From Frankia sp. AgB32 (lineage in GTDB: Bacteria > Actinomycetota > Actinomycetes > Frankiales > Frankiaceae), in contig NZ_JALKFX010000021.1 of NCBI RefSeq assembly GCF_023243045.1, positions 10,512-67,571 on the forward strand: DNA of 57,060 bases, written 5' to 3'. Below, piece after piece: positions 1 to 57,020 of the stretch (its first letter is position 1; every line of letters begins with the position of its first letter). The position numbers and the translations under genes were made by a program. Under the pieces are notes generated by a model, which worked only from the letters and a program-made list of their open reading frames with translations, had not been told where the DNA came from and made no database searches.

Positions 1-103
1 CCCGGGGCCGCCGGGGGGGGGGGCCCGGGCCGGGGGGGGGGGGGGAACCCCCCGGGGGGGGGGGGGGGGGGCGGCCGGGCCGGGGGGGGGCGGCGGGCCG
101 GAC
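1..103. other. G/C homopolymer artefact at window start
   Basis: Almost pure runs of G with a few C. No coding pattern or repeat unit is visible. The texture is the same as at about 47504-47690 and 51900-52005, where it breaks genes, so I read it as low-quality or gap-filled assembly. Any left end of the integrated element that lay here cannot be read. Confidence 0.8.
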
Positions 104-44354: not shown

Positions 44355-44922
44355 CGGTGGCGACCGAGCGCCTGCCGGACCGGTCCTGGTCGGCGCGCTC
44401 CACCGCATCCCGGTCCTGACGGTCCCAGTCATGACCGTCCCGGCCGGGACGGCCCGTCGGCGGCGGATGCCGGCGGGCCCAGGCGGTCGCCAGCACGCTG
44501 GCGAGCAGCAGAGCACTGATCACCGGCCCGGTGCTGAAGTCGGTGGGCGTCGGTTGCAGCCCCGGCCAGGTCACCGCGTACAGGCACAGGGAGGCGCTGG
44601 AGCCGACGCCGATGGCCACGAGGCGCAACCGGCGCAGGATCGGCATTCCGATCACTCCGGCCGCACCGCAGGCATATCCGAACACCGAGGCGGCCAGCAG
44701 GATGCCGCCGACCGCCCACACCGCCGAGTCGGGCAGCCAACCGAGGACATCGGTCGAGCCGTTCCACCGGTAGCGCTCGCCTGGTGTTCCTGTTGGGGCA
44801 CCGGGCCAGACCAGCAGATGGACCAGCCCGTAGCAGAGCAGCACCGAACCTGCGGCGGCTGCCCCGAGCAGCCGTACGGCGTCGAGGATCGCGCGGTGCC
44901 GCCACAGCCTGGGCTGGTTCAC
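44320..44922 (-). CDS. Multi-pass membrane protein, hypothetical
   Basis: A 200-residue protein with four likely transmembrane helices (AVRLLGAAAAGSVLLCYGLVHLLVW, AVWAVGGILLAASVFGYACGAAG, LRLVAIGVGSSASLCLYAVTW, TGPVISALLLASVLATAWA) and a basic, charged C-terminal tail that overlaps the neighbouring HD gene. It begins at ATG 44920-44922, which overlaps the selA stop (TGA), so it is coupled to selA. Its function is unknown. Confidence 0.65.
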   Translation of the reverse strand: MNQPRLWRHRAILDAVRLLGAAAAGSVLLCYGLVHLLVWPGAPTGTPGERYRWNGSTDVLGWLPDSAVWAVGGILLAASVFGYACGAAGVIGMPILRRLRLVAIGVGSSASLCLYAVTWPGLQPTPTDFSTGPVISALLLASVLATAWARRHPPPTGRPGRDGHDWDRQDRDAVERADQDRSGRRSVATVRTVRPARGRD

Positions 44923-46754
44923 GATGCCCGCCCCGGAATCGAGCCACGCGGAATCGTCAACGATCGGATCGTCTCCAGAGCGCTGGTGTCTGCGGTGCTG
45001 GCGTCCCGCGCGGTGCCCGGGGGTCGGCCGTCGGCCGGATGCGGGTGGCCTGCCCCGGAACGTTCACTCCAGGGGATGTCCACCCTGGTGGTGGCGCATC
45101 CGGACTGCTCCGGCGCCAACCGGGGCGCTGCCGGCTCCATCGTCGCCTCGTCGTGGATCGACGTGCCGGGCCTGCCCGCCAGAGATGCACTGCCCGCCTG
45201 TGCGCCGTTCGCTGCCGGCGCGGCGGTGCTGGCCGGAAAGGCGGTGCTGGCCGGAAAGGCGGTGCTGGCCGGAAAGGCGGTGCTGGCCGGGACGGCAGTG
45301 CTGGCCGGGACGGCAGTGCTGGCCGGGACGGCGTCGCCAGCAGGGGAGACGGCGCCAGCAGGGGAGACGACGCCGGGGTTCGAAGGGGCGGTGCCGGCTC
45401 GGGTGGCCGGAGGAGACACAGCCGGCAACGACGGGTCCGGGGAGGGACCGGAACGGGGAACGACCGTGACGGCGGTGGGAGCGGTCGGGGGGTCGGCTGC
45501 GGCGGTGGCGCCGGCCGCGGTGGCGGCCGCGAGCACGGCGGCGGCCAGGACGGGATCGAGACCGGGCGGCACGGTTCGCAGGTCAAGCAGGCAGCAGCCC
45601 TGCTCCACGCGTCCGAGCACCGGAGGTTCGCCCCGGCGCAGCGCCACCGCGACCACCGCGTCGAGCGCGACGGCCGCGCTCGGTAGCTCGACCCCCACCG
45701 CCGGGTACCCGCACCGGCATCCACGCTCGCCGCGTACCGGCGGCGGGCCGGCGGCACCGTCGTCGACGACGGACCGGCTGGACACCGCGGACGCGGCGAT
45801 TCCGGCGCGACGCAACCAGGCCGCGAGGGTCTCGGCACGCGCGGTCAGCCTGTCCGGGTGAACGCGCAGTGCCTGCCGCACCGGCGAATCACCCTGCCGC
45901 AGGGTCGCCTCCAACGCGGCGAGGGTGAGCTTCCCGGCCTGCATCGCCCGGGACATCGGATGCCGGCGGATCCGTTCGATCAGGTCCGCGCGGCCGAGCA
46001 GGAGGCCGCATTCGGGACCACCGAGCAGCTTGTCGCCGCTTGCCAGCACCAGGCTCACGCCGCTATCCAGCCAGCTCGTGGCATCCGGCTCGCTGGCCAG
46101 CAGCGGTTCCGGCCAGAGCAGACCGGATCCGCAGTCCGCGACGAGGGGCACGGTGAAATCGGCGCAGAGTGCGGCGAGGCTGCCCACGGCGGGGCGGTCG
46201 GCGAACCCGACCACCCGGTAGCCCGTGGGGTGTACCCGCAGCACGAAACCGGTGCGCGGGCCGATCGCGTCCGCGTAGTCGCCGAGGGTGGTGCGGTTGG
46301 TGGTGCCCACCTCGCGCAGCCGGGCCCCCGCGGCGACGAGCAGGTCCGGCAGCCGGAGACCGTCCGAGGTCTCGGCCAGCTCACCTCGGCTGACGACGAT
46401 CTCGCGCCGTCCGGCCAGCGCGGCCACCGCCAGGGTGAGTCCGGCGGCGTTGGTGTTGACGACATGGACGTCGGCCGCCGCCGGCACCGCCGCGGCCAAC
46501 GCGGCGCGCGCGGTCCGGCCCCGCCGGTCCCGACGGCCGGTGTCGAGGTCGAGTTCCAGATCGGTGGTGCCGGCCGCCAGGTCCACCGCGGCGCGGGCGG
46601 CCGCTGACAGCTGCGCCCGACCAAGGGAGCCGGGCAGGAGGACTCCCGTGGCGTTGATCACCGGCCGTAGTCCGGTCGCGGTACGGGCGAGCGCCGACGG
46701 CGCCGGGACCGGGTCCGTGGCGGCGCCGAACTCGGGAGGTGCCTGGTCGACCAT
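44919..46754 (-). CDS. selA: L-seryl-tRNA(Sec) selenium transferase, with extended tail
   Basis: A 611-residue protein; SelA is normally about 430-470. The core shows VINATGVLLPGSLGRAQLSAAA, VNTNAAGLTLAVAALAGRREIVVSRGELAE, VGTTNRTTLGDYADAI, LRVHPTGYRVVGF and the PLP lysine in LASGDKLLGGPECGLLLG. It makes selenocysteinyl-tRNA from seryl-tRNA(Sec). The C-terminal 170 residues are low complexity, with six PAST units encoded by 18-bp repeats, so the tail has expanded by slippage. ATG 46752-46754 is chosen; longer upstream frames do not look coding. selB, selC and selD are not seen here. Confidence 0.88.
   Translation of the reverse strand: MVDQAPPEFGAATDPVPAPSALARTATGLRPVINATGVLLPGSLGRAQLSAAARAAVDLAAGTTDLELDLDTGRRDRRGRTARAALAAAVPAAADVHVVNTNAAGLTLAVAALAGRREIVVSRGELAETSDGLRLPDLLVAAGARLREVGTTNRTTLGDYADAIGPRTGFVLRVHPTGYRVVGFADRPAVGSLAALCADFTVPLVADCGSGLLWPEPLLASEPDATSWLDSGVSLVLASGDKLLGGPECGLLLGRADLIERIRRHPMSRAMQAGKLTLAALEATLRQGDSPVRQALRVHPDRLTARAETLAAWLRRAGIAASAVSSRSVVDDGAAGPPPVRGERGCRCGYPAVGVELPSAAVALDAVVAVALRRGEPPVLGRVEQGCCLLDLRTVPPGLDPVLAAAVLAAATAAGATAAADPPTAPTAVTVVPRSGPSPDPSLPAVSPPATRAGTAPSNPGVVSPAGAVSPAGDAVPASTAVPASTAVPASTAFPASTAFPASTAFPASTAAPAANGAQAGSASLAGRPGTSIHDEATMEPAAPRLAPEQSGCATTRVDIPWSERSGAGHPHPADGRPPGTARDASTADTSALETIRSLTIPRGSIPGRAS
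45223..45330. repeat. 18-bp coding tandem repeat in selA
   Basis: Six 18-bp units: three copies of GCGGTGCTGGCCGGAAAG, one ending in GGGACG, then two GCAGTGCTGGCCGGGACG. A diverged unit with GCCAGCAGGGGAGAC continues to about 45370. All are multiples of three, so the frame is kept (PAST repeats). Confidence 0.85.
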
Positions 46755-46892
46755 CACTTCACGTAAATTTAGTGACGCGATCCGTGAAGTCCAGGCGGGT
46801 GGCCCCCGCAACGATGTGTCTCCTCGTGTGCTTTCCAAATGCCCAGGTGACGGTGGTGGTGGGTGATGCGCGTCATCCGCCGGCCGGGTAGT

Positions 46893-47172: not shown

Positions 47173-48011
47173 GTGAGTATCACTGCGGCACTGGTCACCT
47201 TTGGCGTGATCTTCCTGGCTGAGCTGCCCGACAAGACGATGGTCGCGAGCCTCGTGCTCGGCAGTCGGTTCCGCCCGCTGTATGTCTGGGTGGGCGTGGC
47301 CGCCGCGTTCGCCGTGCACGTCACCCTGGCGGTGGCGGCGGGCAGCGTGTTCTCCCTCCTCCCGAGCCGGATCGTGGACTCGATCACCGCGCTGCTGTTC
47401 GTCATCGGCGCCGTCCTCGTACTGCGGGAGGGCCGGGAGAGCGAGCCGGACGGCGACGGGCAGGACGAGGCCGCCGCTGCGGTCAGCGCTGCGGCGGGCG
47501 ACGGCGGGGGGCCGGGGGGGGGGCGGGGGGCGCCCCCCCCCCCGGGGGGGGGCGGGGGGGGCCCCCCCGCCGGGGGGGCGGCGGGGCGGCGCGGCGCGGG
47601 GGGGGGGGGGCGGGGCCCGCGGGGGGGGGCCGGGGGGGGGGGGGCGACGGCGGGGGGCCGGCGTCGCCCGCCCCCCGGGAGGCAGGCGACGCGAACCATC
47701 TTGGCGCATCGGGAGGTGCCGCAGCGCCAGTGGCGTTCTGGCGAGTGGCGACAACCTCCTTCGGTGTGGTGTTCCTCGCCGAGCTCGGGGACCTCACGCA
47801 GATCTCGACGGCGAACCTCGCCGCCCGCTACGACTCCCCGGTCATGGTGTGGCTCGGCGCGGTGCTGGCACTGTGGACGGTGGCCGCGCTCGCCATCGCC
47901 GGCGGGCGTGGCCTGCTCAGGGTGCTGCCGATCTCCGTGATCACCCGCGTTGCCGCCGCGGCGTTCGCGGTGCTCGCGGTGCTGTCGGTGATCGAGGCGG
48001 TGCGCGGATAG
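47173..48011 (+). CDS. TMEM165/GDT1 (UPF0016) manganese exporter, frame broken by artefact
   Basis: Two UPF0016 repeat halves. The first, from GTG 47173 (SITAALVTFGVIFLAELPDKTMVASLVLGSRF), has the Glu-Leu-Pro-Asp-Lys-Thr variant of the E-x-G-D motif and three membrane helices. The second, from about 47680 (FWRVATTSFGVVFLAELGDLTQISTANLAARY), has ELGD and three more helices. The halves are in different frames, and a G/C homopolymer block lies where the cytoplasmic linker should be, so the frameshift is almost surely an assembly error. It exports Mn2+ and is controlled by the upstream riboswitch. Confidence 0.82.
47504..47690. other. G/C homopolymer assembly artefact inside the exporter gene
   Basis: Long G runs with isolated C blocks, with no repeat unit and no coding bias. 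It separates two halves of one membrane protein and changes the reading frame. The true linker is probably shorter and acidic or Gly-rich. Confidence 0.85.
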
Positions 48012-49193: not shown

Positions 49194-50186
49194 TCACGGA
49201 GTCGGGTCGGAGCGGGACTGCTCGGCCGAGCCGGTCCAGTGGTAGGACACATCCCGGGTGTAGGTGCTGAACCCGAGGGCGCAGTACATCCGCACGGCGC
49301 GATCGTTGTCCTCGTCCACGTACAGCAGCACCGAGTCGAGCCCCTGGTCCCGCAGGTGCCCGAGCCCGGCCAGGGTGAGCGCCCGGCCGAGCCCGGCACC
49401 GCCGGCCCCGGGCCGCACACCCACCACGTAGACCTCACCGATCGGCCCCGCGGGCCGGCCGGCCGGCGGCATCGGATCGACCTCGTGGATCTTGGTCCAG
49501 TGGAAGCCGACCAGGTGCCCGTCACGCTCAGCGACGAAGAAGCCCTTCGGGTCGAACCAGGGCTCGGCCTGCCGCCGGGTGAGGTCGTCGAGTGTCCACC
49601 GGCCCTGCTCGGGATGGTCGGCGAAGGCGGCGGCGTTCACGGCGAGCCATGCCTCGTCGTCCCGGCCGGGCTGGTAGGTCCGCAGGGTGATCCCGGCGGG
49701 TGGCTCGGCCGGCGGGAGCGCCGGCCCGGCAGCCAGCGGGCGGCGCAGTTGGAACAGCACCCTGGTCCGGGCGAAGCCGAGCCGATCGGCGAGGGACGCG
49801 GCGGCCGGCAGGTCGCCGTGGGCCCAGACGTCGAGGCGCATGGGCGCCGACCCGGCCGCCTCGGTCAGCGCGGTGGCCAGAGCGGTGCCGACACCGCGGC
49901 GCCGGTGGTCGGGATGCACCACGAGCTCGGCCTGGCCCTCGCCCGGGACGCCGCCCAGGTGCGCGTAGCCGACGAGCCCGCGTGGGCCTGCGGCCGGCGC
50001 GTCAGCGGTCCCGACCGCGAGCAGGTGACGGCCGGTGCCCAGCCGCAGGCCGGGCCGCAGCGTCAGCCGAACGTCCTCGGAGACCGGGCCGGTGCCGTCG
50101 GCGTGTTCCGCGGCGGCGAGCAGGTTCTCGATGTCGTCGACGTCCGCGCCGCTGAGCGTCGGCCGCCAGGTCAGGGAAGTCACCAC
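49194..50186 (-). CDS. mshD: Mycothiol synthase (MshD)
   Basis: A 330-residue protein with two GNAT domains, the size and form of MshD, which acetylates Cys-GlcN-Ins in the last step of mycothiol synthesis. The N-terminal GNAT has VHPDHRRRGVGTALATAL, and the active C-terminal GNAT has NAAAFADHPEQGRWTLDDL, EPWFDPKGFFVAERDGHLVGFHWTK and EVYVVGVRPGAGGAGLGRAL (acetyl-CoA loop). The neighbour glnR is on the same strand just upstream, as I recall for other actinobacteria. Confidence 0.93.
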   Translation of the reverse strand: MVTSLTWRPTLSGADVDDIENLLAAAEHADGTGPVSEDVRLTLRPGLRLGTGRHLLAVGTADAPAAGPRGLVGYAHLGGVPGEGQAELVVHPDHRRRGVGTALATALTEAAGSAPMRLDVWAHGDLPAAASLADRLGFARTRVLFQLRRPLAAGPALPPAEPPAGITLRTYQPGRDDEAWLAVNAAAFADHPEQGRWTLDDLTRRQAEPWFDPKGFFVAERDGHLVGFHWTKIHEVDPMPPAGRPAGPIGEVYVVGVRPGAGGAGLGRALTLAGLGHLRDQGLDSVLLYVDEDNDRAVRMYCALGFSTYTRDVSYHWTGSAEQSRSDPTP

Positions 50187-50228
50187 ACGACCGTATGGGC
50201 CGCACCGGGGGGCTGTCCCGCGTTCGCG

Positions 50229-50329
50229 CGCCCGATCCCCCGGGCGGGCGCCGGGGGGGATCGGGCGGCCGGGTGAATGGCCGCCCTGCCCTGGTCCGGT
50301 GTGGTTGGGGCCGGATCGGGGCAGGGCGG
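50229..50329 (-). terminator. Two hairpins downstream of glnR
   Basis: A 13-bp stem (50229-50241/50255-50267) and an 11-bp stem (50281-50291/50319-50329), both between the stop of glnR and the start of mshD. They should terminate the glnR transcript before mshD. Confidence 0.7.
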
Positions 50330-50334
50330 TGCGG

Positions 50335-51078
50335 CTAGACCCGCTCGGGCGTGCGGGCGTCGACGCGGCCGGCCGACCCGGGCGCGCCGTCCGCCAGCGG
50401 TGTGATCGACGGCGCCACGAACTTGTAGCCGACGTGCCGGACCGTGCCGATCATCGCTTCGTGCTCGGGGCCGAGCTTCGCGCGCAGCCGCCGGACATGG
50501 ACGTCCACCGTGCGGGTACCGCCGTAGTAGTCGTAGCCCCATACCTCCTGGAGCAGCTGGGCCCGGGTGAAGACCCGTCCCGGGTGCTGCGCCAGGTACT
50601 TCAGCAGCTCGAACTCCTTGAAGGTGAGCTCGAGCGGCCGGCCGCGCAGCTTCGCCGAGTAGGTCGTCTCGTCGACGGAGAGATCGCCGGACCGGATGAC
50701 ACCGGCCTCGGCGGTGCCGCCGGCGGCAGCGACCCGACCGATGGCCAGTCGCAACCGGGCCTCGACCTCGGCGGGACCCGCGGAGTCGAGGACGACGTCG
50801 TCGACTCCCCAGTCGGCGGAGACCGCGGCCAGGCCACCCTCGGTGACCAGCGCCAGCAGCGGCGTGGTGAGACCGGTGGTGCGCAGCAGCCGGCACAGGC
50901 CGCGGGCGATGACGAGTTCCCGCCGCCCGTCCACCACGATCACGTCCACAGGCGGAGCGTCCAGCAGCGCACTCGCCTCGAGCGGTGCCACCCGTACCGT
51001 GTGCGTGAGAAGGCCAAGGGACGGAAACGATTCAGCGGAGGGACCGGGGGCGTTGGTGAGCAAAAGGACGACGCTCAA
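50335..51078 (-). CDS. glnR: GlnR, global nitrogen regulator (orphan response regulator)
   Basis: A 247-residue regulator from TTG 51076-51078 with ribosome site GGAGGAG. The receiver-like domain is poor in the standard acidic pocket ([26 protein letters not shown]), as in GlnR, which works without a kinase. The OmpR-type winged helix is highly conserved ([53 protein letters not shown]). GlnR should activate amtB through the box at 24578-24615 in this window. A divergent hydrolase gene starts 127 bp away. Confidence 0.93.
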
Positions 51079-51204
51079 GACGACTCCTCCAGGGTGGTGT
51101 GGTGGGGCAGCGTCGACCCGGTGAGTATCTCGATGTCCGGCACTGGGTGTCTCACGACCGTCATGGGCATGAAACGAAGGTCGGTATGTGGGGAGGATAG
51201 CGGA

Positions 51205-51899
51205 GTGCACTACTCGGCTCCTACCGTCTACGGGATGCTGCCGACCGCCGATTCTGAGATCCTGGCCACGAGCCACGCCAGAAGGCTCGGCTCTATGCGC
51301 GGAGAGTCACATCGGCTCGCGAGTGTGCTCGTCCACGGCGTCTCCGGCTCCATGAACAGTCCCGCGTTACGGCGGATTTCGTCTGGATTGCGGGAATATG
51401 GCGGAGTCCTGGTGATGGACCTGCGGGGCCACGGGCGATCAACGGGGTGGTGCACCTTCGGCGATCGTGAGGTCTTCGACGTGGACGCCGCCGTGGCCGC
51501 GGCTCGCGGACTTGGCTACCTGCACGTTGTCACGATCGGCTGGTCCATGGGCGCGGCGGCGGTGATCCGCCAGGCGGGCCTCGCCAACACCGGCACGCTC
51601 TGTCACGGGCGGCGGCTCCGGCGCGCGCCGGACGGGGTCGTCAGCGTGAGCTCCACAAGCCGCTGGTTTGTTCGCGACACCGCGCCCATGCGGCGGATTC
51701 ACTGGTTTGCGGAACATCGCACCGGCCGAATGGTGGCGCGTGCGGCGTTACGCGTGCGTATCGATCCCCGCGCCTTCGCGCCTGTCCCACGATCACCCCT
51801 GGAGATGGTCGGTGCGATCGCACCGACTCCGCTGCTGATCGTGCACGGTCGGCGTGACCGGTATTTCACGCTGGAGCGCCCACGCGCACTCGCCGCGGC
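51205..51899 (+). pseudogene. Alpha/beta hydrolase, 3' end lost in the homopolymer artefact
   Basis: About 230 residues are visible from GTG 51205 (GGAGG eight bases upstream). The hydrolase signatures are LASVLVHGVSGSM (oxyanion loop), VLVMDLRGHGRST, the nucleophile elbow TIGWSMGAAAV and PLLIVHGRRDRYFT (the acid-residue strand). The catalytic His would lie in the missing C-terminal part. The gene is divergent from glnR. The artefact at 51900 hides the stop, so this is probably an intact gene in the real genome rather than a true pseudogene. Confidence 0.75.
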
Positions 51900-52005
51900 G
51901 GGGGGGGGGGGGGGGGGGGGCCGGGGGGGGGGGGGGGGGGGGGGGGCGCGCGCGCGCGCGGGGGGGGGGGGGGGGGGCCCCGCGGGGGGCCCCCCCCCCC
52001 CCCCC
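51900..52005. other. G/C homopolymer assembly artefact between two genes
   Basis: Runs of G, a CGCGCG stretch and a run of C. It joins the hydrolase fragment and the HDO-type protein into one false reading frame. Confidence 0.85.
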
Positions 52006-52740
52006 ACCGCCGAACTCTCGGACCTGCGCAGGCAGGTCGACGAGACGCTCGACACGCTGATCGCCAGGTTCTACGCCGAGATTCCGTACGCGGATCACCA
52101 GGCGCGCGGCGAGGAAATCAACATGGCGTACTACAAGCGCCACAACATCGAGACCATCCTGCGGCTGCGCCGCAAGCGCACGATCGACGCGCTCGCCATC
52201 GGCTACTTCACCAAGCGTGACCCGGTCCGCGGGGCCGCGTGGGCGCACTACGTCGAGGACGAGATGCTCCACGACGAGTGGTTCGCCGGCGACCTGGGCC
52301 GCGTCGGCGTGACCAAGGACGAGATCTACTCCACCGAGCCGTTCCAGGCCACCAAGCTGCTCACCGGCTACCTCCAGTACGGCATGGAGTTCGAGGGCAC
52401 GCCGCTGGCCCTGCTGTGCAGCGTCTACTTCGTCGAGTACACGACGACGGAGACCCAGCCGTCCTGGGTGAAGAACCTCGAGGACAAGCTCGGCCGGGAG
52501 AAGCTCGCCGGCGCCCGCCGCCACGTCGGCACCGACATCGAGGACGAGCACGCCGACTTCGTCTGGGGCGTGCTCACCTCCCTGGTCGCCTCCCCCGAGG
52601 ACGAGGCGAAGGTGCTGGCCCACATCAAGATCGTGGCGAACCTGTGGGTCGCCTACTTCCTCGAGCTCTACCAGGCGGTCGTGGCCCCGGCGACCAGCGC
52701 CTTCGAGGCGGCCGGCAGCCTGGCCGGACGGTTCGCCTGA
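52006..52740 (+). CDS. Heme-oxygenase-like diiron oxidase (HDO) family protein, 5' end lost
   Basis: About 244 residues are visible, the start being inside the artefact. It is all-helical with the metal-ligand pattern of the HDO group (as in CADD, UndA, BesC): Glu and His in HYVEDEMLHDEWFAGDL, Glu in FVEYTTTET, and HVGTDIEDEHADFV with Asp and His ligands. Such enzymes use diiron and O2 for C-C cleavage, N-oxygenation or desaturation of small amino acids and fatty acids. It heads a set with a GNAT-like protein, SDR, asd and ask, so an aspartate-derived substrate is the best inference. Confidence 0.75.
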   Translation, partial: TAELSDLRRQVDETLDTLIARFYAEIPYADHQARGEEINMAYYKRHNIETILRLRRKRTIDALAIGYFTKRDPVRGAAWAHYVEDEMLHDEWFAGDLGRVGVTKDEIYSTEPFQATKLLTGYLQYGMEFEGTPLALLCSVYFVEYTTTETQPSWVKNLEDKLGREKLAGARRHVGTDIEDEHADFVWGVLTSLVASPEDEAKVLAHIKIVANLWVAYFLELYQAVVAPATSAFEAAGSLAGRFA

Positions 52741-52771
52741 CCCACGCCCGTACGCACGGGGGGAACCGTTT

Positions 52772-53689
52772 ATGGCACCCGCACCACCGACAGCATCACC
52801 GGCGGACACAGCATCACCGGCGGACACAGCAGCACCAGCGGACACAGCAGCGGGCCCGGCTGTCCGGCGCAGCGTCGTCCGGTTCACCCGCGACGGCTGC
52901 CCGCTGGGCCCGTCGGAGGAACGATGGCTGCGGGAAGGCCTGATCGCGGCGTTGCCCGACCTGCGGATGGCGCAGCTTTTCGCCCTGCGCCCCGGGCTGC
53001 TGCGCGAGGCGGAACACCTGGTCGTCGGCGTCGAGCGGGACAGCGGGCAACCGGTGTCCGCACTGGGGGCGAGCTGGGAGCGCACCACCGGCGGCCGCCG
53101 GTTCCTGCACATCGGCGTCCAGTTCGTCGCGGCGACGCTGCGCGGCGGGCAGGTGTTCAGCACGAGCTGGCTCGCGTTGCTCGAGGAGGTCATCGCCACC
53201 GGGGGGTTTCCGGTGCTCTCCGCGCTGCGCACCTACAACCCGGTCGCCTACTGCGCGATGCGGGCCTACGGCGAACTGCCCGGCGCGGTGATGTACCCGC
53301 GGGTGGCGCGCCCCGCCGCGGCCACCGCGCGCCCCTGCGGGCGGGACGGATCCGTGCCTGGCGGCGGATCCGCACCCGGTGGCCGGCCGAGCGCCGGCGA
53401 CCCGGTCGACCACGATCGCGGCGTCCGGGCGCTGGCCGGCGAGATCGCGGCGACGCTCGCCCCCGGTGCCGCCTTCGACCCGGCCAGCGGGCTGCTGGCC
53501 GGCATCGGCGTCCCTCGCGACCTGTACCGCGAGCGTCCGCTCGGCGCGGACGCGGCGGTCAACGCGCACTTCGCCCGGTACACGAGCCCCGGCGATCGCA
53601 TCCTCTGCGCGGTGCACGTCCACGACCCGGCCACCGCCGACGCGATCGTCGCGAACTTCGAACGCCGCTCAGCGCGGTCCTCGACGTAA
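52772..53689 (+). CDS. GNAT-like protein of unknown substrate
   Basis: A 305-residue protein from ATG 52772. A three-fold SPADTA-like head (18-bp DNA repeat) is followed by a GNAT-like domain: QPVSALGASWERTTGGRRFLHI, VQFVAATLRGGQVFSTSWLALLEEVIATGGFPVLSALRTYNPVAYCAMRAYG. The acetyl-CoA loop is not canonical, so I give only a fold guess. The C-terminal half (GERPL-type loops, DRILCAVHVHDPATADAIV) resembles no motif I know. It follows the HDO gene by 31 bp and precedes the SDR gene. Confidence 0.55.
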   Translation: MAPAPPTASPADTASPADTAAPADTAAGPAVRRSVVRFTRDGCPLGPSEERWLREGLIAALPDLRMAQLFALRPGLLREAEHLVVGVERDSGQPVSALGASWERTTGGRRFLHIGVQFVAATLRGGQVFSTSWLALLEEVIATGGFPVLSALRTYNPVAYCAMRAYGELPGAVMYPRVARPAAATARPCGRDGSVPGGGSAPGGRPSAGDPVDHDRGVRALAGEIAATLAPGAAFDPASGLLAGIGVPRDLYRERPLGADAAVNAHFARYTSPGDRILCAVHVHDPATADAIVANFERRSARSST

Positions 53690-53699
53690 GGAGCACACA

Positions 53700-54500
53700 G
53701 TGGCAACCAGTCTGGATCTGACCGGCAAGGTAGCGGCCGTCGTCGGCGCGGCGTCGGGGATCGGCCAGGCGATCGCGATCGGCCTGGCCGAGCAGGGCGC
53801 TGTCGTCGAGTGCGCCGACGTCGACACCGTCGGCCTCGAGCAGACCGTCGCGGAGATTCTCGCCGCCGGCGGCACGGCGAAGGCCTCGACCGTCGACGTG
53901 CGGTCCTCCGCCGAGGTCGACGACCTGTTCGCCCGGGTCGTCACCGACCGCGGCAGCCTCGACATCGCCGTCGGCACCCCCGGCATCAACATCCGCAAGC
54001 CGCTCGTCGACTACACCGACGAGGAGTACACCGCCGTCACGGACGTCAACCTGCGGGGCAGCTTCAACGTCCTGCGCGGCGCCGGGCGGATCATGGCGGT
54101 GCGGGGTGGCGGCAGCATCATCGTCATCTCGTCGATCAGCAGCCGGGCGGTCGAGCCCGGCCAGGTGATCTACGCGGGCACGAAGGCCGCGCTGGCGCAG
54201 ATGGTCCGGGTGCTCGCCGCGGAGCTCGGGCCGTCCGGGGTGCGGGTCAACGCGATCGCCCCCGGTCCCGTCGAGACGGCGCTGACCGTGCCGATCCGCT
54301 CCTCCGCCCGCTGGGCGGACGCCTATTCCGAGAAGGTCGCACTCGGCCGCTGGGCGAAGCCGTCCGAGATCGCCGGCCCGGCGCTGTTCCTGGCCTCCGA
54401 CGCCGCCACCTACGTCAACGGCGAGGTGCTGTTCGCCGACGGCGGCTGGGTCGACCTCGACGCGCGTTTCGCGGACGAGAAGGCCGTCACCACCGAGTAG
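53700..54500 (+). CDS. Short-chain dehydrogenase/reductase
   Basis: A 266-residue classical SDR from GTG 53700 with AAGGAG upstream. It shows the cofactor motif VVGAASGIGQAIAIG, an Asp at the end of strand 2 (ECADVDTVG) favouring NAD, catalytic Ser in IIVISSISSR and the Tyr-x-x-x-Lys in QVIYAGTKAAL, plus the VRVNAIAPGPVETAL end. The usual NNAG motif is altered to GTPGINI. It is probably an alcohol/ketone oxidoreductase of the pathway with asd and ask. Its substrate is unknown. Confidence 0.9.
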   Translation: MATSLDLTGKVAAVVGAASGIGQAIAIGLAEQGAVVECADVDTVGLEQTVAEILAAGGTAKASTVDVRSSAEVDDLFARVVTDRGSLDIAVGTPGINIRKPLVDYTDEEYTAVTDVNLRGSFNVLRGAGRIMAVRGGGSIIVISSISSRAVEPGQVIYAGTKAALAQMVRVLAAELGPSGVRVNAIAPGPVETALTVPIRSSARWADAYSEKVALGRWAKPSEIAGPALFLASDAATYVNGEVLFADGGWVDLDARFADEKAVTTE

Positions 54501-54570
54501 TGGCGCGCCGCGCCACCGAAGCCAGGCCCCGCCGTCACCGGGGCCACACCAGTACAGGGGGGATGAAGGA

Positions 54571-55611
54571 GTGGATATCGCCGTCGTCGGCGCGACGGGT
54601 GTCGTCGGCCGAGAGGCGCTGGGGCTGCTGGAGTCCGGGTTCCTGCCGGACGTCGGGCGGGTCGTGCCGGTCGCTTCGGCGGGCTCGGCGGCCCGCGACC
54701 TGGGCGAGGAGCTCGGGCTCACGCTGAAGGTCGAGCCGGTCGTCGCGCTGGAGCAGTTCGACCCGAGCACGGTGGACGTCGCGGTGTTCAGCGCCGGCGC
54801 GCCGATCAGCATCGAGTGGGCTCCCCGGTTCGCCGCGGCGGGCGCCCTCGTCGTCGACAACAGCTCGGCGTTCCGGATGGAGGACGACGTCCCGCTCGTC
54901 GTCCCGGAGGTCAACCCGCACACCCTGCGCACCCGCCCGGCGCGCGGCATCGTGGCCAACCCGAACTGCTCGACGATCCAGCTCGTCCGGGCGCTGCACC
55001 CGCTGCGGGAGATCGGCGAGCTCGAGCGGGTCATCGTCGCCAGCTACCAGTCCGCCTCCGGCGGCGGGCTGCGCGGCCTCGGCGAGCTCGCCGACACGAC
55101 CCGGTCGCTGCTCGACGGCGCCGACCCGGCGCAGGGCACCCCGGGGAAGTTCGGTCAGCCCCTCGCGTTCAACCTGGTGCCCGAGATCGGCCTGCGTGAC
55201 GACGAGGGCCACTCGCACGAGGAACGCAAGCTGCGCCGCGAACCACGCAAGATCATGGAGATGCCGAGCCTGCGGGTCGCGGCGACCGCGGTGCGGGTCG
55301 CCGTCGTGAACGGCCACTCCGAGGCCGTGCACGTCGAGTTCGCCGACGCGGTGTCGGCGGCCGACGCGCTCGCCGCGCTGCGCGCCGCGCCGAACCTGCG
55401 CGCCTACGGCGACGACGAGGGCTACCCGATGCCGCGGTTCGTCTGCGCGTCACCGACCGAGCGCCGCCTCGTCCACGTCGGCCGGGTGCGCAGCGACCCG
55501 GACGACCCCCGCGCGCTGTGGCTGTGGGTCGTCGCCGACAACCTGACCGTCGGCGCCGCGCTCAACGCCCTGGAGATCGTCCGGCTGGCCGGCGAGAGGG
55601 CGTGGCTGTGA
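54571..55611 (+). CDS. asd: Aspartate-semialdehyde dehydrogenase
   Basis: A 346-residue enzyme that reduces aspartyl phosphate to aspartate semialdehyde. The NADP loop is VVGATGVVGREALGLL. The catalytic Cys is in VANPNCSTIQLVRAL, the Gln and active-site loop in SYQSASGGGLRGL, and the His/Arg region in GHSHEERKLRREPRKIM. GTG 54571. It overlaps the aspartokinase gene by four bases. Placement beside HDO and SDR genes, rather than with lysine or threonine genes, suggests a dedicated precursor-supply copy. A second housekeeping copy elsewhere would confirm that. Confidence 0.93.
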   Translation: MDIAVVGATGVVGREALGLLESGFLPDVGRVVPVASAGSAARDLGEELGLTLKVEPVVALEQFDPSTVDVAVFSAGAPISIEWAPRFAAAGALVVDNSSAFRMEDDVPLVVPEVNPHTLRTRPARGIVANPNCSTIQLVRALHPLREIGELERVIVASYQSASGGGLRGLGELADTTRSLLDGADPAQGTPGKFGQPLAFNLVPEIGLRDDEGHSHEERKLRREPRKIMEMPSLRVAATAVRVAVVNGHSEAVHVEFADAVSAADALAALRAAPNLRAYGDDEGYPMPRFVCASPTERRLVHVGRVRSDPDDPRALWLWVVADNLTVGAALNALEIVRLAGERAWL

Positions 55612-56828
55612 GCGGCTCGAACGGCACCGCCGGGGCGGGTGCGGCGGCGGACGTCGTCGTGCTGAAGTTCGGCGGGGCGTCGTTCGCGGCGCCGGGCGCG
55701 CACCGGCGGATCGCCGCGCACGTGGCCGGACGGCTGGGCGGCAACGCGCCGGGGCCGCGCCACGCCGTCGTGGTCGTCAGCGCGGTCGCCGGGGAGACGG
55801 ACCGGCTGTCCGCGGCGATGCGGGCGGTGAGCCCCGACCCGGACCGGGAGCTGCTCGCCGCCGCGCTGATGACCGGCGAGACCGTCAACGTGGCGCTGAT
55901 GACCGCGGCGCTGCGCGAGGCCGGGCTCGACGCGGTGCCCCTCGACGCCGCCGACACCGGCTGCGCGGGCATCGGCGAGCCCCACCACGCCGAGCTGCGC
56001 GCCATCGATCCGCGGCCGCTGCGCCGCCACCTCGCCGGCGCCCCGACGGGCACGGCGCTCGTGCTGCCGGGCGGGCAGGGCATCGGGCTCGACGGGCGGC
56101 CGGTGATGCTGGGCCGCAACAGCTCGGACCTGTCCGCGATCGCCGCCGCCATCGCCCTCCGCGCCCCGGCCTGCGAGATCTTCTCCGACTCCCCCGGCAT
56201 CTGCACCGCCGACCCGCGGCTCGTACCGGGCGCCCGTACGCTGGCGACCGTCGGGTACGACACGATGATGACGATGTCCCGGCACGGCGCGAAGGTGCTG
56301 CACCACTCCGCGGTCGACTGGGCCCGCCGGCACGGCGTGGAGATCCACTGCCGCTCGCTGCTGCCCGCCGGGAAGGTGTGCTCGGTCGTCGCGGCGGCAC
56401 CGACAAGCGATCCCGCCGTTCTCGTGCACGGCAGCGGCGCGGTGTGGGCCGGCGAGGCGAGGCTGGTCCACGCCGTGCACGCGGAGCTGACCGGGTCGGG
56501 CTCCGACGCGGTCGTCGTCCACACCTCAGGCACCTTCGGTGGTAACGGAAAAATTTGGACCGCCGACAACCGCGACGGAGACGTGGCACATCTTGTACTA
56601 GCTGACGCTGTCCGGGATCTACAGCCGAGAGGCCTGCGGCACCTCGGCGGCATGCGGCTAGTGACCACACTGTTCCCAGACGGTATACTCGAGCATCGCA
56701 TCGGGCCGTCGACGGACGCCGCCGCGGCCGCCCGAGCATTGCACGAGACGTTCTGTCGGCCTGACGTGTCGCCTCGACACACGGCCTCTATGGCGGACCT
56801 TCAGGCCGGGGACTCTGCCCTCCGCTGA
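55608..56828 (+). CDS. Aspartokinase with atypical C-terminus
   Basis: A 406-residue aspartokinase from GTG 55608, overlapping asd (GTGA). The kinase core is normal: LKFGGASFAAPGAHR, VVVVSAVAGETDRL, SPDPDRELLAAALMTGETVN, VMLGRNSSDLSAIAAAIALRA and EIFSDSPGICTADPRLV. The expected paired ACT domains are not recognisable. Instead residues 270-380 have a different pattern (VLVHGSGAVWAGEARLV, GTFGGNGKIWTADNRDGD), and composition becomes more AT-rich near 56530-56830. Loss of ACT feedback sites would make it insensitive to Lys/Thr, fitting secondary metabolism. It may also be a chimera of two coding segments. Confidence 0.85.
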   Translation: MSGSNGTAGAGAAADVVVLKFGGASFAAPGAHRRIAAHVAGRLGGNAPGPRHAVVVVSAVAGETDRLSAAMRAVSPDPDRELLAAALMTGETVNVALMTAALREAGLDAVPLDAADTGCAGIGEPHHAELRAIDPRPLRRHLAGAPTGTALVLPGGQGIGLDGRPVMLGRNSSDLSAIAAAIALRAPACEIFSDSPGICTADPRLVPGARTLATVGYDTMMTMSRHGAKVLHHSAVDWARRHGVEIHCRSLLPAGKVCSVVAAAPTSDPAVLVHGSGAVWAGEARLVHAVHAELTGSGSDAVVVHTSGTFGGNGKIWTADNRDGDVAHLVLADAVRDLQPRGLRHLGGMRLVTTLFPDGILEHRIGPSTDAAAAARALHETFCRPDVSPRHTASMADLQAGDSALR

Positions 56829-56930
56829 GTCGAGGAAACCGCTCCACGCGAGGGCATATTCCGCAAACTGATCAGCCGAAGCACATTGCGGTGGTACCTT
56901 GCGAGGGCGTCTCCAAAGCCGGAGGACTGA

Positions 56931-57020
56931 TGTCGAGAACCTGGAAGGTCGCCGTCGCGGTGCTGGCCGTCACCGCCATAGCGCAATGGCGCTTAGTTAA
57001 GCGGTCCGGGCAAGGATGAT
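56931..57020 (+). CDS. Very small membrane peptide
   Basis: A 29-residue reading frame with a good ribosome site (GGAGG six to eight bases upstream): M-S-R-T-W-K then VAVAVLAVTAIAQW and a basic end. It could be a membrane microprotein or the signal anchor of a gene cut by something beyond the window. It is supported only by the ribosome site and hydrophobic profile. Confidence 0.35.

Follow-up and report, generated by a model that had tools for sequence, protein, structure and literature searches.

The window examined here, a 57,060-nucleotide stretch of Frankia sp. AgB32 DNA (contig NZ_JALKFX010000021.1, positions 10,512 to 67,571), carries near its right end five genes of one cluster: the 3' part of a heme-oxygenase-like diiron oxidase (HDO) gene, a gene for a GNAT-fold protein (F0), a short-chain dehydrogenase/reductase (SDR) gene, an aspartate-semialdehyde dehydrogenase gene (asd) and an aspartokinase gene (ask). 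All five lie on the + strand between window positions 52006 and 56828 with short gaps or overlaps, an arrangement given correctly by the original prediction, which was made from the sequence of the window and read the genes as an aspartate-derived pathway. They are only the right half of a larger cluster, from which a misassembly has cut off a tiny peptide gene and the genes of two further proteins, F1a and F1b. We consider it reasonably probable (about 0.6) that the region forms the right half of a cluster of the ribosomally synthesized and post-translationally modified peptide (RiPP) type, in which the HDO would stand in place of the crocagin oxygenase and asd and ask would feed a four-carbon (C4) unit by the mechanism proposed below.

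The cluster was delimited by comparison with relatives. A search of 84,980 species genomes with the HDO as query gave 35 loci (close relatives only), in which genes were called by a simple codon-usage script and then checked with tblastn. The order F1a, tiny open reading frame (ORF), F1b, HDO, GNAT-fold gene was found in 30 of these loci and in a relative with a complete genome (G038), and in a Nocardia locus, the 31st, the same genes form two arms that diverge. The HDO is hence accompanied by the tiny peptide gene and the F1 pair in 31 of 35 loci; two of the four misses start inside F1b (L014 and L016) and a third stops at F1a (L020), all three at contig edges, and the fourth, from Thiohalocapsa (L036), has no F1 match. 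The GNAT-fold gene adjoins the HDO gene with a strong tblastn match in 34 of 35 loci and a weak one (27%) in L036. Around this core the gene content varies with the genus. Ten Frankia loci read, as far as their contigs reach, ATP-binding cassette (ABC) importer and luciferase-like genes, F1a, F1b, HDO, GNAT-fold gene, SDR, asd and ask, followed on the opposite strand by DUF2817 and major facilitator superfamily (MFS) genes. Most Streptomyces-type loci read F1a, F1b, HDO, GNAT-fold gene and DUF2817, and also contain an ATP-grasp ligase family, MFS, Fe-alcohol dehydrogenase, aldehyde dehydrogenase and AraC regulator genes and asd; in one extended locus (G101) both asd and ask are present, after the AraC gene. 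The ATP-grasp genes belong to two families, present in 17 and 6 loci, respectively, none of them Frankia; the Nocardia loci, like those of Frankia, showed no member of either family.

The left half is missing from the window owing to a false join. The sequence just before the HDO fragment (Table 1) consists of runs of 16-24 G or C, into which the HDO frame reads back, and a second contig of the same genome (C241), reached via a stretch of a Frankia relative (L004), ends at base 115027 inside the HDO N-terminus and then likewise runs into poly-G/C. The terminal part of C241 contains F1b, then the HDO start MNDDPRSWYLDP, then the poly-G/C. Alignment to L004 indicates that the two HDO halves meet at about codon 20, and HDO codons ~1-20 are therefore either on C241 or lost. 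The window sequence directly left of the artefact (49194-51890) maps to 1,001,849-1,004,543 in G038, ~1.6 Mb from the HDO gene at 2,638,988, and G038 carries the whole cluster in one piece with F1b and HDO contiguous. Since the left flank maps so far from HDO and C241 ends within the same gene, the window joins two unrelated places of the genome at the poly-G/C stretch. In this strain the cluster is split over C241, C194 and probably C30, which carries DUF2817 and MFS genes matching those of the relatives. An alpha/beta-hydrolase-like gene to the left of HDO was considered as a cluster member and rejected because it sits across the false join.

The tiny ORF lies between F1a and F1b behind a good ribosome-binding site and encodes a basic peptide of ~18-29 residues; that of Frankia sp. 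AgB32, on C241, encodes VEKVAQKKIQVKKNDRYLGTLLG if the assumed start codon is used. A regular-expression search matched a single copy in each of 31 loci out of the 35, the 31 coming from Frankia, Nocardia, Sphaerisporangium, Streptosporangiaceae and Streptomyces/Kitasatospora, and it also matched on C241. The expression was written after the first examples had been seen and thus checks conservation rather than serving as a blind search; it permitted other residues at most of the end positions, yet all 31 peptides end in YLGTLLG. Codons were compared among rows ending in GTLLG, a restriction that dropped none of the 31 loci and left 16 distinct DNA versions (120 pairs). Over the last seven codons the pairwise differences at codon positions 1, 2 and 3 numbered 0, 0 and 239, whereas all 16 compared codons gave 276, 125 and 395, indicating greater variation in the first part of the peptide. 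A scan of 398 genomes from a different phylum gave two matches to the 24-base DNA motif for YLGTLLG, both lacking a stop codon, and seven to a control pattern.

Peptides of this kind were also seen on plasmids. A Paraburkholderia largidicola plasmid (L127, 14815-16074) encodes a peptide ending in YLGTLLG followed by a single F1 protein with a Cys-Pro-Cys tail and a metal site that looks complete. Within 15 kb no match to any other cluster gene was seen, which suggests that peptide and F1 form a unit; an HDO match was found in 11 plasmid records, and this plasmid is not one of them. Two Streptomyces plasmids (L128, 11772-13065, and L133, 5790-7065) encode a more distant F1-like protein (31%) behind a 40-46-residue peptide ending in YGKYDRLEG, with a GntD-named hydroxylase and genes of the nonribosomal peptide synthetase type near the F1-like gene and, in L128, a radical SAM gene.

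F1a and F1b are candidate peptide-holding proteins and neither gave a credible Pfam match. The AlphaFold model of F1a (mean pLDDT 80) resembles the crocagin protein CgnE (Z 21.1; 3.7 Å over 287 residues), a dihydroxypyridine dioxygenase (Z 20.3) and CgnB (Z 19.8), then M29 aminopeptidases (Z 13-15), the next PDB entry being at Z 5.5. According to the crocagin report (PMC10070186), the dinuclear site of CgnB consists of Glu161, Glu252, Glu274, His280, His291 and Asp293, two of which are lost in CgnE. In F1a, Glu184, Glu283, Glu303, His313, His325 and Asp327 are invariant in the 19 rows aligned (of 29 copies) and occur in the same order with similar spacing, from which we infer a one-to-one match with the CgnB site. 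The last His-x-Asp pair is missing from F1b in every one of the 17 rows aligned (of 30 copies). By these alignments, the F1 pair has the CgnB/CgnE pattern of one intact and one degenerate metal site, although the residues lost in F1b differ from those lost in CgnE. F1b ends in CGC, CGCH or CGCT, and a C-x-C lies at most three residues from the end in 32 of the 34 copies that have a C-terminus, including that of Frankia sp. AgB32; in L013 the CGC lies a few residues further in, and in L008 the gene reads on into the HDO frame. The CGC tail was considered as a peptide core, an idea dropped when the separate tiny ORF made it needless, and as a sulfur carrier, which was dropped as well, possible as that role is.

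The likeness to crocagin extends beyond the F1 fold. That report (PMC10070186) describes a tiny basic precursor (CgnA, 21 residues), an M29-fold peptide-binding pair with one dinuclear and one degenerate metal site, and a non-heme iron oxygenase encoded beside the pair; in our loci a tiny Lys/Arg-rich gene lies within ~1.5 kb of a CgnB/CgnE-like pair in 31 of 35. The oxygenase differs, being an HDO here and the 2-oxoglutarate dioxygenase CgnC in crocagin synthesis, and the peptide ends in YLGTLLG rather than having the conserved Tyr-Trp core. The F1b CGC tail, the dedicated asd and ask, the GNAT-fold protein and DUF2817 are further differences. No 2-oxoglutarate oxygenase was present among the conserved families scanned.

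The HDO scored 28.5 bits against Pfam Haem_oxygenas_2, just below the cut-off of 28.9, and its closest solved relative by sequence is MboA of mangotoxin synthesis (9ypi; phmmer 1.1e-21). In a 20-row alignment (A4), Glu86, His89, Glu144, His173, Asp177 and His182, plus Asp90 and Tyr82, are invariant and align with the MboA ligands, and the HDO thus has the 3-His/3-carboxylate diiron ligand set of its superfamily as listed in the MboA report (PMC13185094). According to the same source, MboA turns the C-terminal Arg of Leu-Ala-Arg into an alkyne, desaturating the last residue of the tripeptide, and binds the C-terminal carboxylate of its substrate at Fe1. The chemistry of the cluster HDO may be like that of MboA. 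Among the MboA residues that bind the guanidinium group (Asn57, Asp61 and Asp139) only Asp61 is kept, Asn57 being replaced by an invariant Lys57 and Asp139, in nearly all rows, by Val140. With two of three binders replaced, the side chain of the HDO substrate is probably not Arg. The clusters differ also in that a ribosomal peptide gene is present here; ATP-grasp ligases are shared with the Streptomyces-type loci. An MboB-type flavin/Fe2S2 reductase was not seen among the representative cluster proteins scanned, a scan that did not cover every neighboring gene. An HDO in a RiPP pathway has a precedent in VarO of thiovarsolin synthesis (PMC6511847), which also has ATP-grasp and MFS genes nearby and yields N-acetylated products. 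In that pathway, however, YcaO/TfuA act on a repeating precursor, neither of which was seen among the proteins scanned here, and the peptide differs.

The asd and ask genes have the marks of a dedicated supply. Asd matches Pfam Semialdhyde_dh(+C) and the NCBIfam equivalog PRK14874 (348.9 bits; cut-off 223). The original prediction that the aspartokinase lacks ACT domains was borne out by a scan up to E 10 (the filters of HMMER remove most matches above ~0.1), whereas the other ask of the genome, the control in the same scan, showed ACT domains in two stretches. Nor are ask and asd the only housekeeping copies with an HDO unconserved beside them, the finding that was to count against the original prediction: a second asd/ask pair lies on contig C195, and the linkage to the HDO is kept. 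In 24 genomes drawn from the 35 loci, a cluster-type asd (56-82% identical to that of the window) lies 2-14 kb from the HDO gene (at most ~13.5 kb) on the same contig in 20; the remaining copies listed, with 41-51% identity, are distant or sit on different contigs. In a tree of 32 asd proteins (the 20 linked ones and that of the window versus 11 other copies) the cluster proteins fall on one side of a branch supported at 100/99, and none of 500 shuffles gave a value as low; the program flagged long branches for L107, L108 and L109. The ask gene adjoins asd in 12 loci and in G101, the remaining loci being uncounted. Linkage and phylogeny together indicate that asd is a dedicated paralogue and that asd and ask are not the housekeeping copies, and so the expectation that the set would recur in other genomes as a dedicated cluster held up. 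In four of the 24 genomes no cluster-type asd was found near HDO (Nocardia L013, Streptomyces L022 and L032, and Thiohalocapsa L036). In L022 and L032 an AMP-binding enzyme gene and an aldehyde-dehydrogenase-like gene were seen near the core.

F0 gave no credible Pfam match and no NCBIfam match, and its sequence profile (A3) found no convincing match among PDB sequences, such that a fold comparison was needed. Its AlphaFold model (mean pLDDT 85) matched 29 PDB entries at E <= 0.001, by title GNAT-type acetyltransferases and relatives (best Z 11.6). By its model the protein has the GNAT fold, as the original prediction had supposed; an acyltransferase activity is putative.

In the mechanism that we propose, F1a (with the complete dinuclear site) and F1b (degenerate, with the CGC tail) would hold the peptide so that the diiron HDO can reach it, as CgnB/CgnE do with CgnA for its oxygenase, and the HDO would oxidize or desaturate the C-terminal part. 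The GNAT-fold protein and DUF2817 (an M14-type metallopeptidase) may protect and trim the peptide. Ask and asd would supply aspartate semialdehyde without feedback control, and the SDR (in Frankia) or the Fe-alcohol dehydrogenase and aldehyde dehydrogenase (in Streptomyces) could convert it to a C4 building block. Ligation of this block to the part derived from the peptide would follow, catalyzed by ATP-grasp ligases in the loci that have them, and the MFS protein would export the product, which in Frankia a FecCD-type importer may take back. We infer four of these steps from the gene set: use of the peptide as the HDO substrate, its binding by F1a and F1b, its trimming or protection by DUF2817 and the GNAT-fold protein, and the entry of aspartate semialdehyde into the product. 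An aspartate-derived pathway of five genes, as first proposed, is not what the comparison supports; four of 24 genomes have no linked cluster-type asd, whereas the peptide and F1 pair are kept in 31 of 35 loci, and the core therefore appears to consist of a ribosomal peptide and the HDO, aspartate semialdehyde being a common though not universal supply.

Several points weigh against this reading. Translation of the tiny ORF is deduced from its codon pattern and ribosome-binding site. The likeness of the F1 proteins to CgnB/CgnE is one of fold only, as sequence profiles of F1a (A1) and of a wider F1 set (A5) gave no convincing match to PDB sequences, and only F1a was modeled, F1b being taken as its homologue. 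The last residue of the peptide is Gly, which lacks a C-beta, and thus an MboA-like attack on it would be impossible unless the peptide were trimmed or extended; from the residue replacements, the substrate of MboA does not appear to carry over to the cluster HDO. The CoA pyrophosphate loop of GNAT enzymes reads Q/R-x-x-G-x-G/A, and in the F0 stretch picked by eye as its counterpart (for example LRGGQVF, YRNGPVF) the two small residues do not appear to be kept. The C4 unit may be accessory, given the four genomes with no linked cluster-type asd, and the joining step has no candidate in Frankia and Nocardia since neither ATP-grasp family was seen there.

The main choice concerns the role of the peptide, which may form the product core or act as a carrier that is used repeatedly. 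If a carrier (scaffold), the YLGTLLG peptide would not be consumed; an amino acid derived from aspartate semialdehyde would be put on its C-terminal Gly, oxidized by the HDO and cut off by DUF2817, as in the pearlin and amino-group-carrier pathways. A peptide C-terminus that is identical in 31 loci across genera is more in keeping with a reused carrier than with a product core, and the invariant Lys57, which replaces Asn57, would be suited to an acidic side chain. The metallopeptidase likewise favors a carrier, and a gene named for the M14 family follows an HDO gene on an Enterobacter plasmid. Binding of the C-terminal carboxylate at Fe1 of MboA (PMC13185094) points the same way. On the other hand, no peptide-ligating enzyme is common to all loci (the ATP-grasp families reach 17 and 6 loci and no Frankia), which favors a core, and no PEARL (LanB-like) gene was found among the representative proteins scanned, which did not include every gene. 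We regard a carrier as unlikely, albeit the strongest competitor of the RiPP-type mechanism proposed above. It becomes a little less likely when specified in full, as a reusable YLGTLLG carrier with an aspartate-semialdehyde-derived residue, a CgnB/CgnE-like pair with a Cys-Gly-Cys tail, HDO oxidation, M14-type release and no PEARL seen, distributed in Frankia, Nocardia, Sphaerisporangium and Streptomyces.

It seems improbable that the HDO acts, in the manner of mangotoxin synthesis, on a short peptide made by a ligase or on a free amino acid, with the tiny ORF and F1 pair serving only in regulation or protection. The relationship to MboA, the ATP-grasp genes of the Streptomyces-type clusters and the Enterobacter plasmid, where an HDO gene occurs with M14 peptidase and MFS genes and no F1 match, are consistent with such a role. 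Yet the Frankia and Nocardia clusters, which show neither ATP-grasp family, retain the peptide, F1a, F1b and the HDO; moreover, only silent changes are seen at the end of the tiny ORF, and the F1 fold is that of peptide-binding proteins. Enzyme annotation, taken by itself, would fit plain amino-acid metabolism, that is, asd, ask and the SDR gene as a spare aspartate-pathway operon beside unrelated genes. To this we give almost no credence: the genome has its housekeeping pair elsewhere, with an ask that has ACT domains, the asd-HDO linkage is kept across genera and the cluster asd proteins form a separate clade, which refutes the idea as far as genomics can. The RiPP-type mechanism proposed above remains the reading that we prefer.

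The cluster brings together HDOs, a fast-growing family of amino-acid-oxidizing enzymes, and the recently founded CgnB/CgnE-like family of peptide-holding proteins in one conserved locus. The precursor is short enough to be synthesized, which allows a defined test of HDO oxidation on a peptide held by a CgnB/CgnE-like pair, and the dedicated ACT-free aspartokinase gives a handle for feeding and labeling. No described cluster of such composition was found in the literature searched, as the original prediction had it, nor did that literature pair an HDO with proteins like those of crocagin synthesis, with a clustered asd or with the YLGTLLG motif (most subscription journals lay outside the search). 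The cluster may be listed, undescribed, in supplementary lists of HDO/ATP-grasp clusters (PMC13185094) or in RiPPER output (PMC10070186).

An HDO of the cluster type (at least 417 bits) is present in 11 of 13 searched genomes of the genus Frankia, and hence the product may matter in these plant symbionts, and in 13 of 35 of the family Frankiaceae. A class-wide HDO search (393 genomes drawn) gave a single genome outside Frankiaceae, G101, and a phylum-wide F1a search again gave only G101, indicating that the cluster is sparse outside the family. A second HDO type (L081-L085, L087 and L088), 38-40% identical to the cluster HDOs and scoring ~190 bits, was also seen in Frankiaceae. It is the only type in two genomes (G276 and G331) and accompanies the main type in five (G056, G215, G260, G268 and G284). 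By our gene labels, ATP-grasp genes lie near four of the seven second-type genes (G215, G268, G276 and G284), and neither an F1 gene nor a YLGT-type peptide was found in the seven loci, which are possibly mangotoxin-like clusters. On an Enterobacter chuandaensis plasmid (L129, 11986-14947) an HDO gene (52%) is followed by M14 metallopeptidase and MFS genes, with a second iron-containing redox enzyme gene further on; no F1 match was found on that plasmid.

Table 1 Cluster genes and assembly artefact in the window (window positions)
Feature	Position	Strand	Basis
Poly-G/C assembly artefact, false join	51900..52005	.	G/C runs; end of C241; mapping in relative
HDO, MboA class, 3' part only	52006..52740	+	phmmer to MboA; metal ligands
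GNAT-fold protein F0	52772..53689	+	AlphaFold model; PDB GNAT chains; tblastn linkage in related loci
SDR oxidoreductase	53700..54500	+	Pfam adh_short_C2 4.1e-62; linked in Frankia loci and Nocardia L013
Dedicated aspartate-semialdehyde dehydrogenase asd	54571..55611	+	NCBIfam PRK14874; linkage; separate clade
Aspartokinase ask, no recognizable ACT domains; start overlaps the end of asd	55602..56828 (start 55602 or 55608)	+	Pfam AA_kinase 5e-40

Two further poly-G/C stretches of the same kind as that at the false join are present at window positions 13-90 and 47514-47644, where other false joins or damaged genes are likely. None of the three tRNAs of the window is a tRNA-Sec. A gene on the - strand (44919-46757), which may encode a selenocysteine synthase (SelA), contains an unusual VPASTA-type repeat in the C-terminal region of the product.

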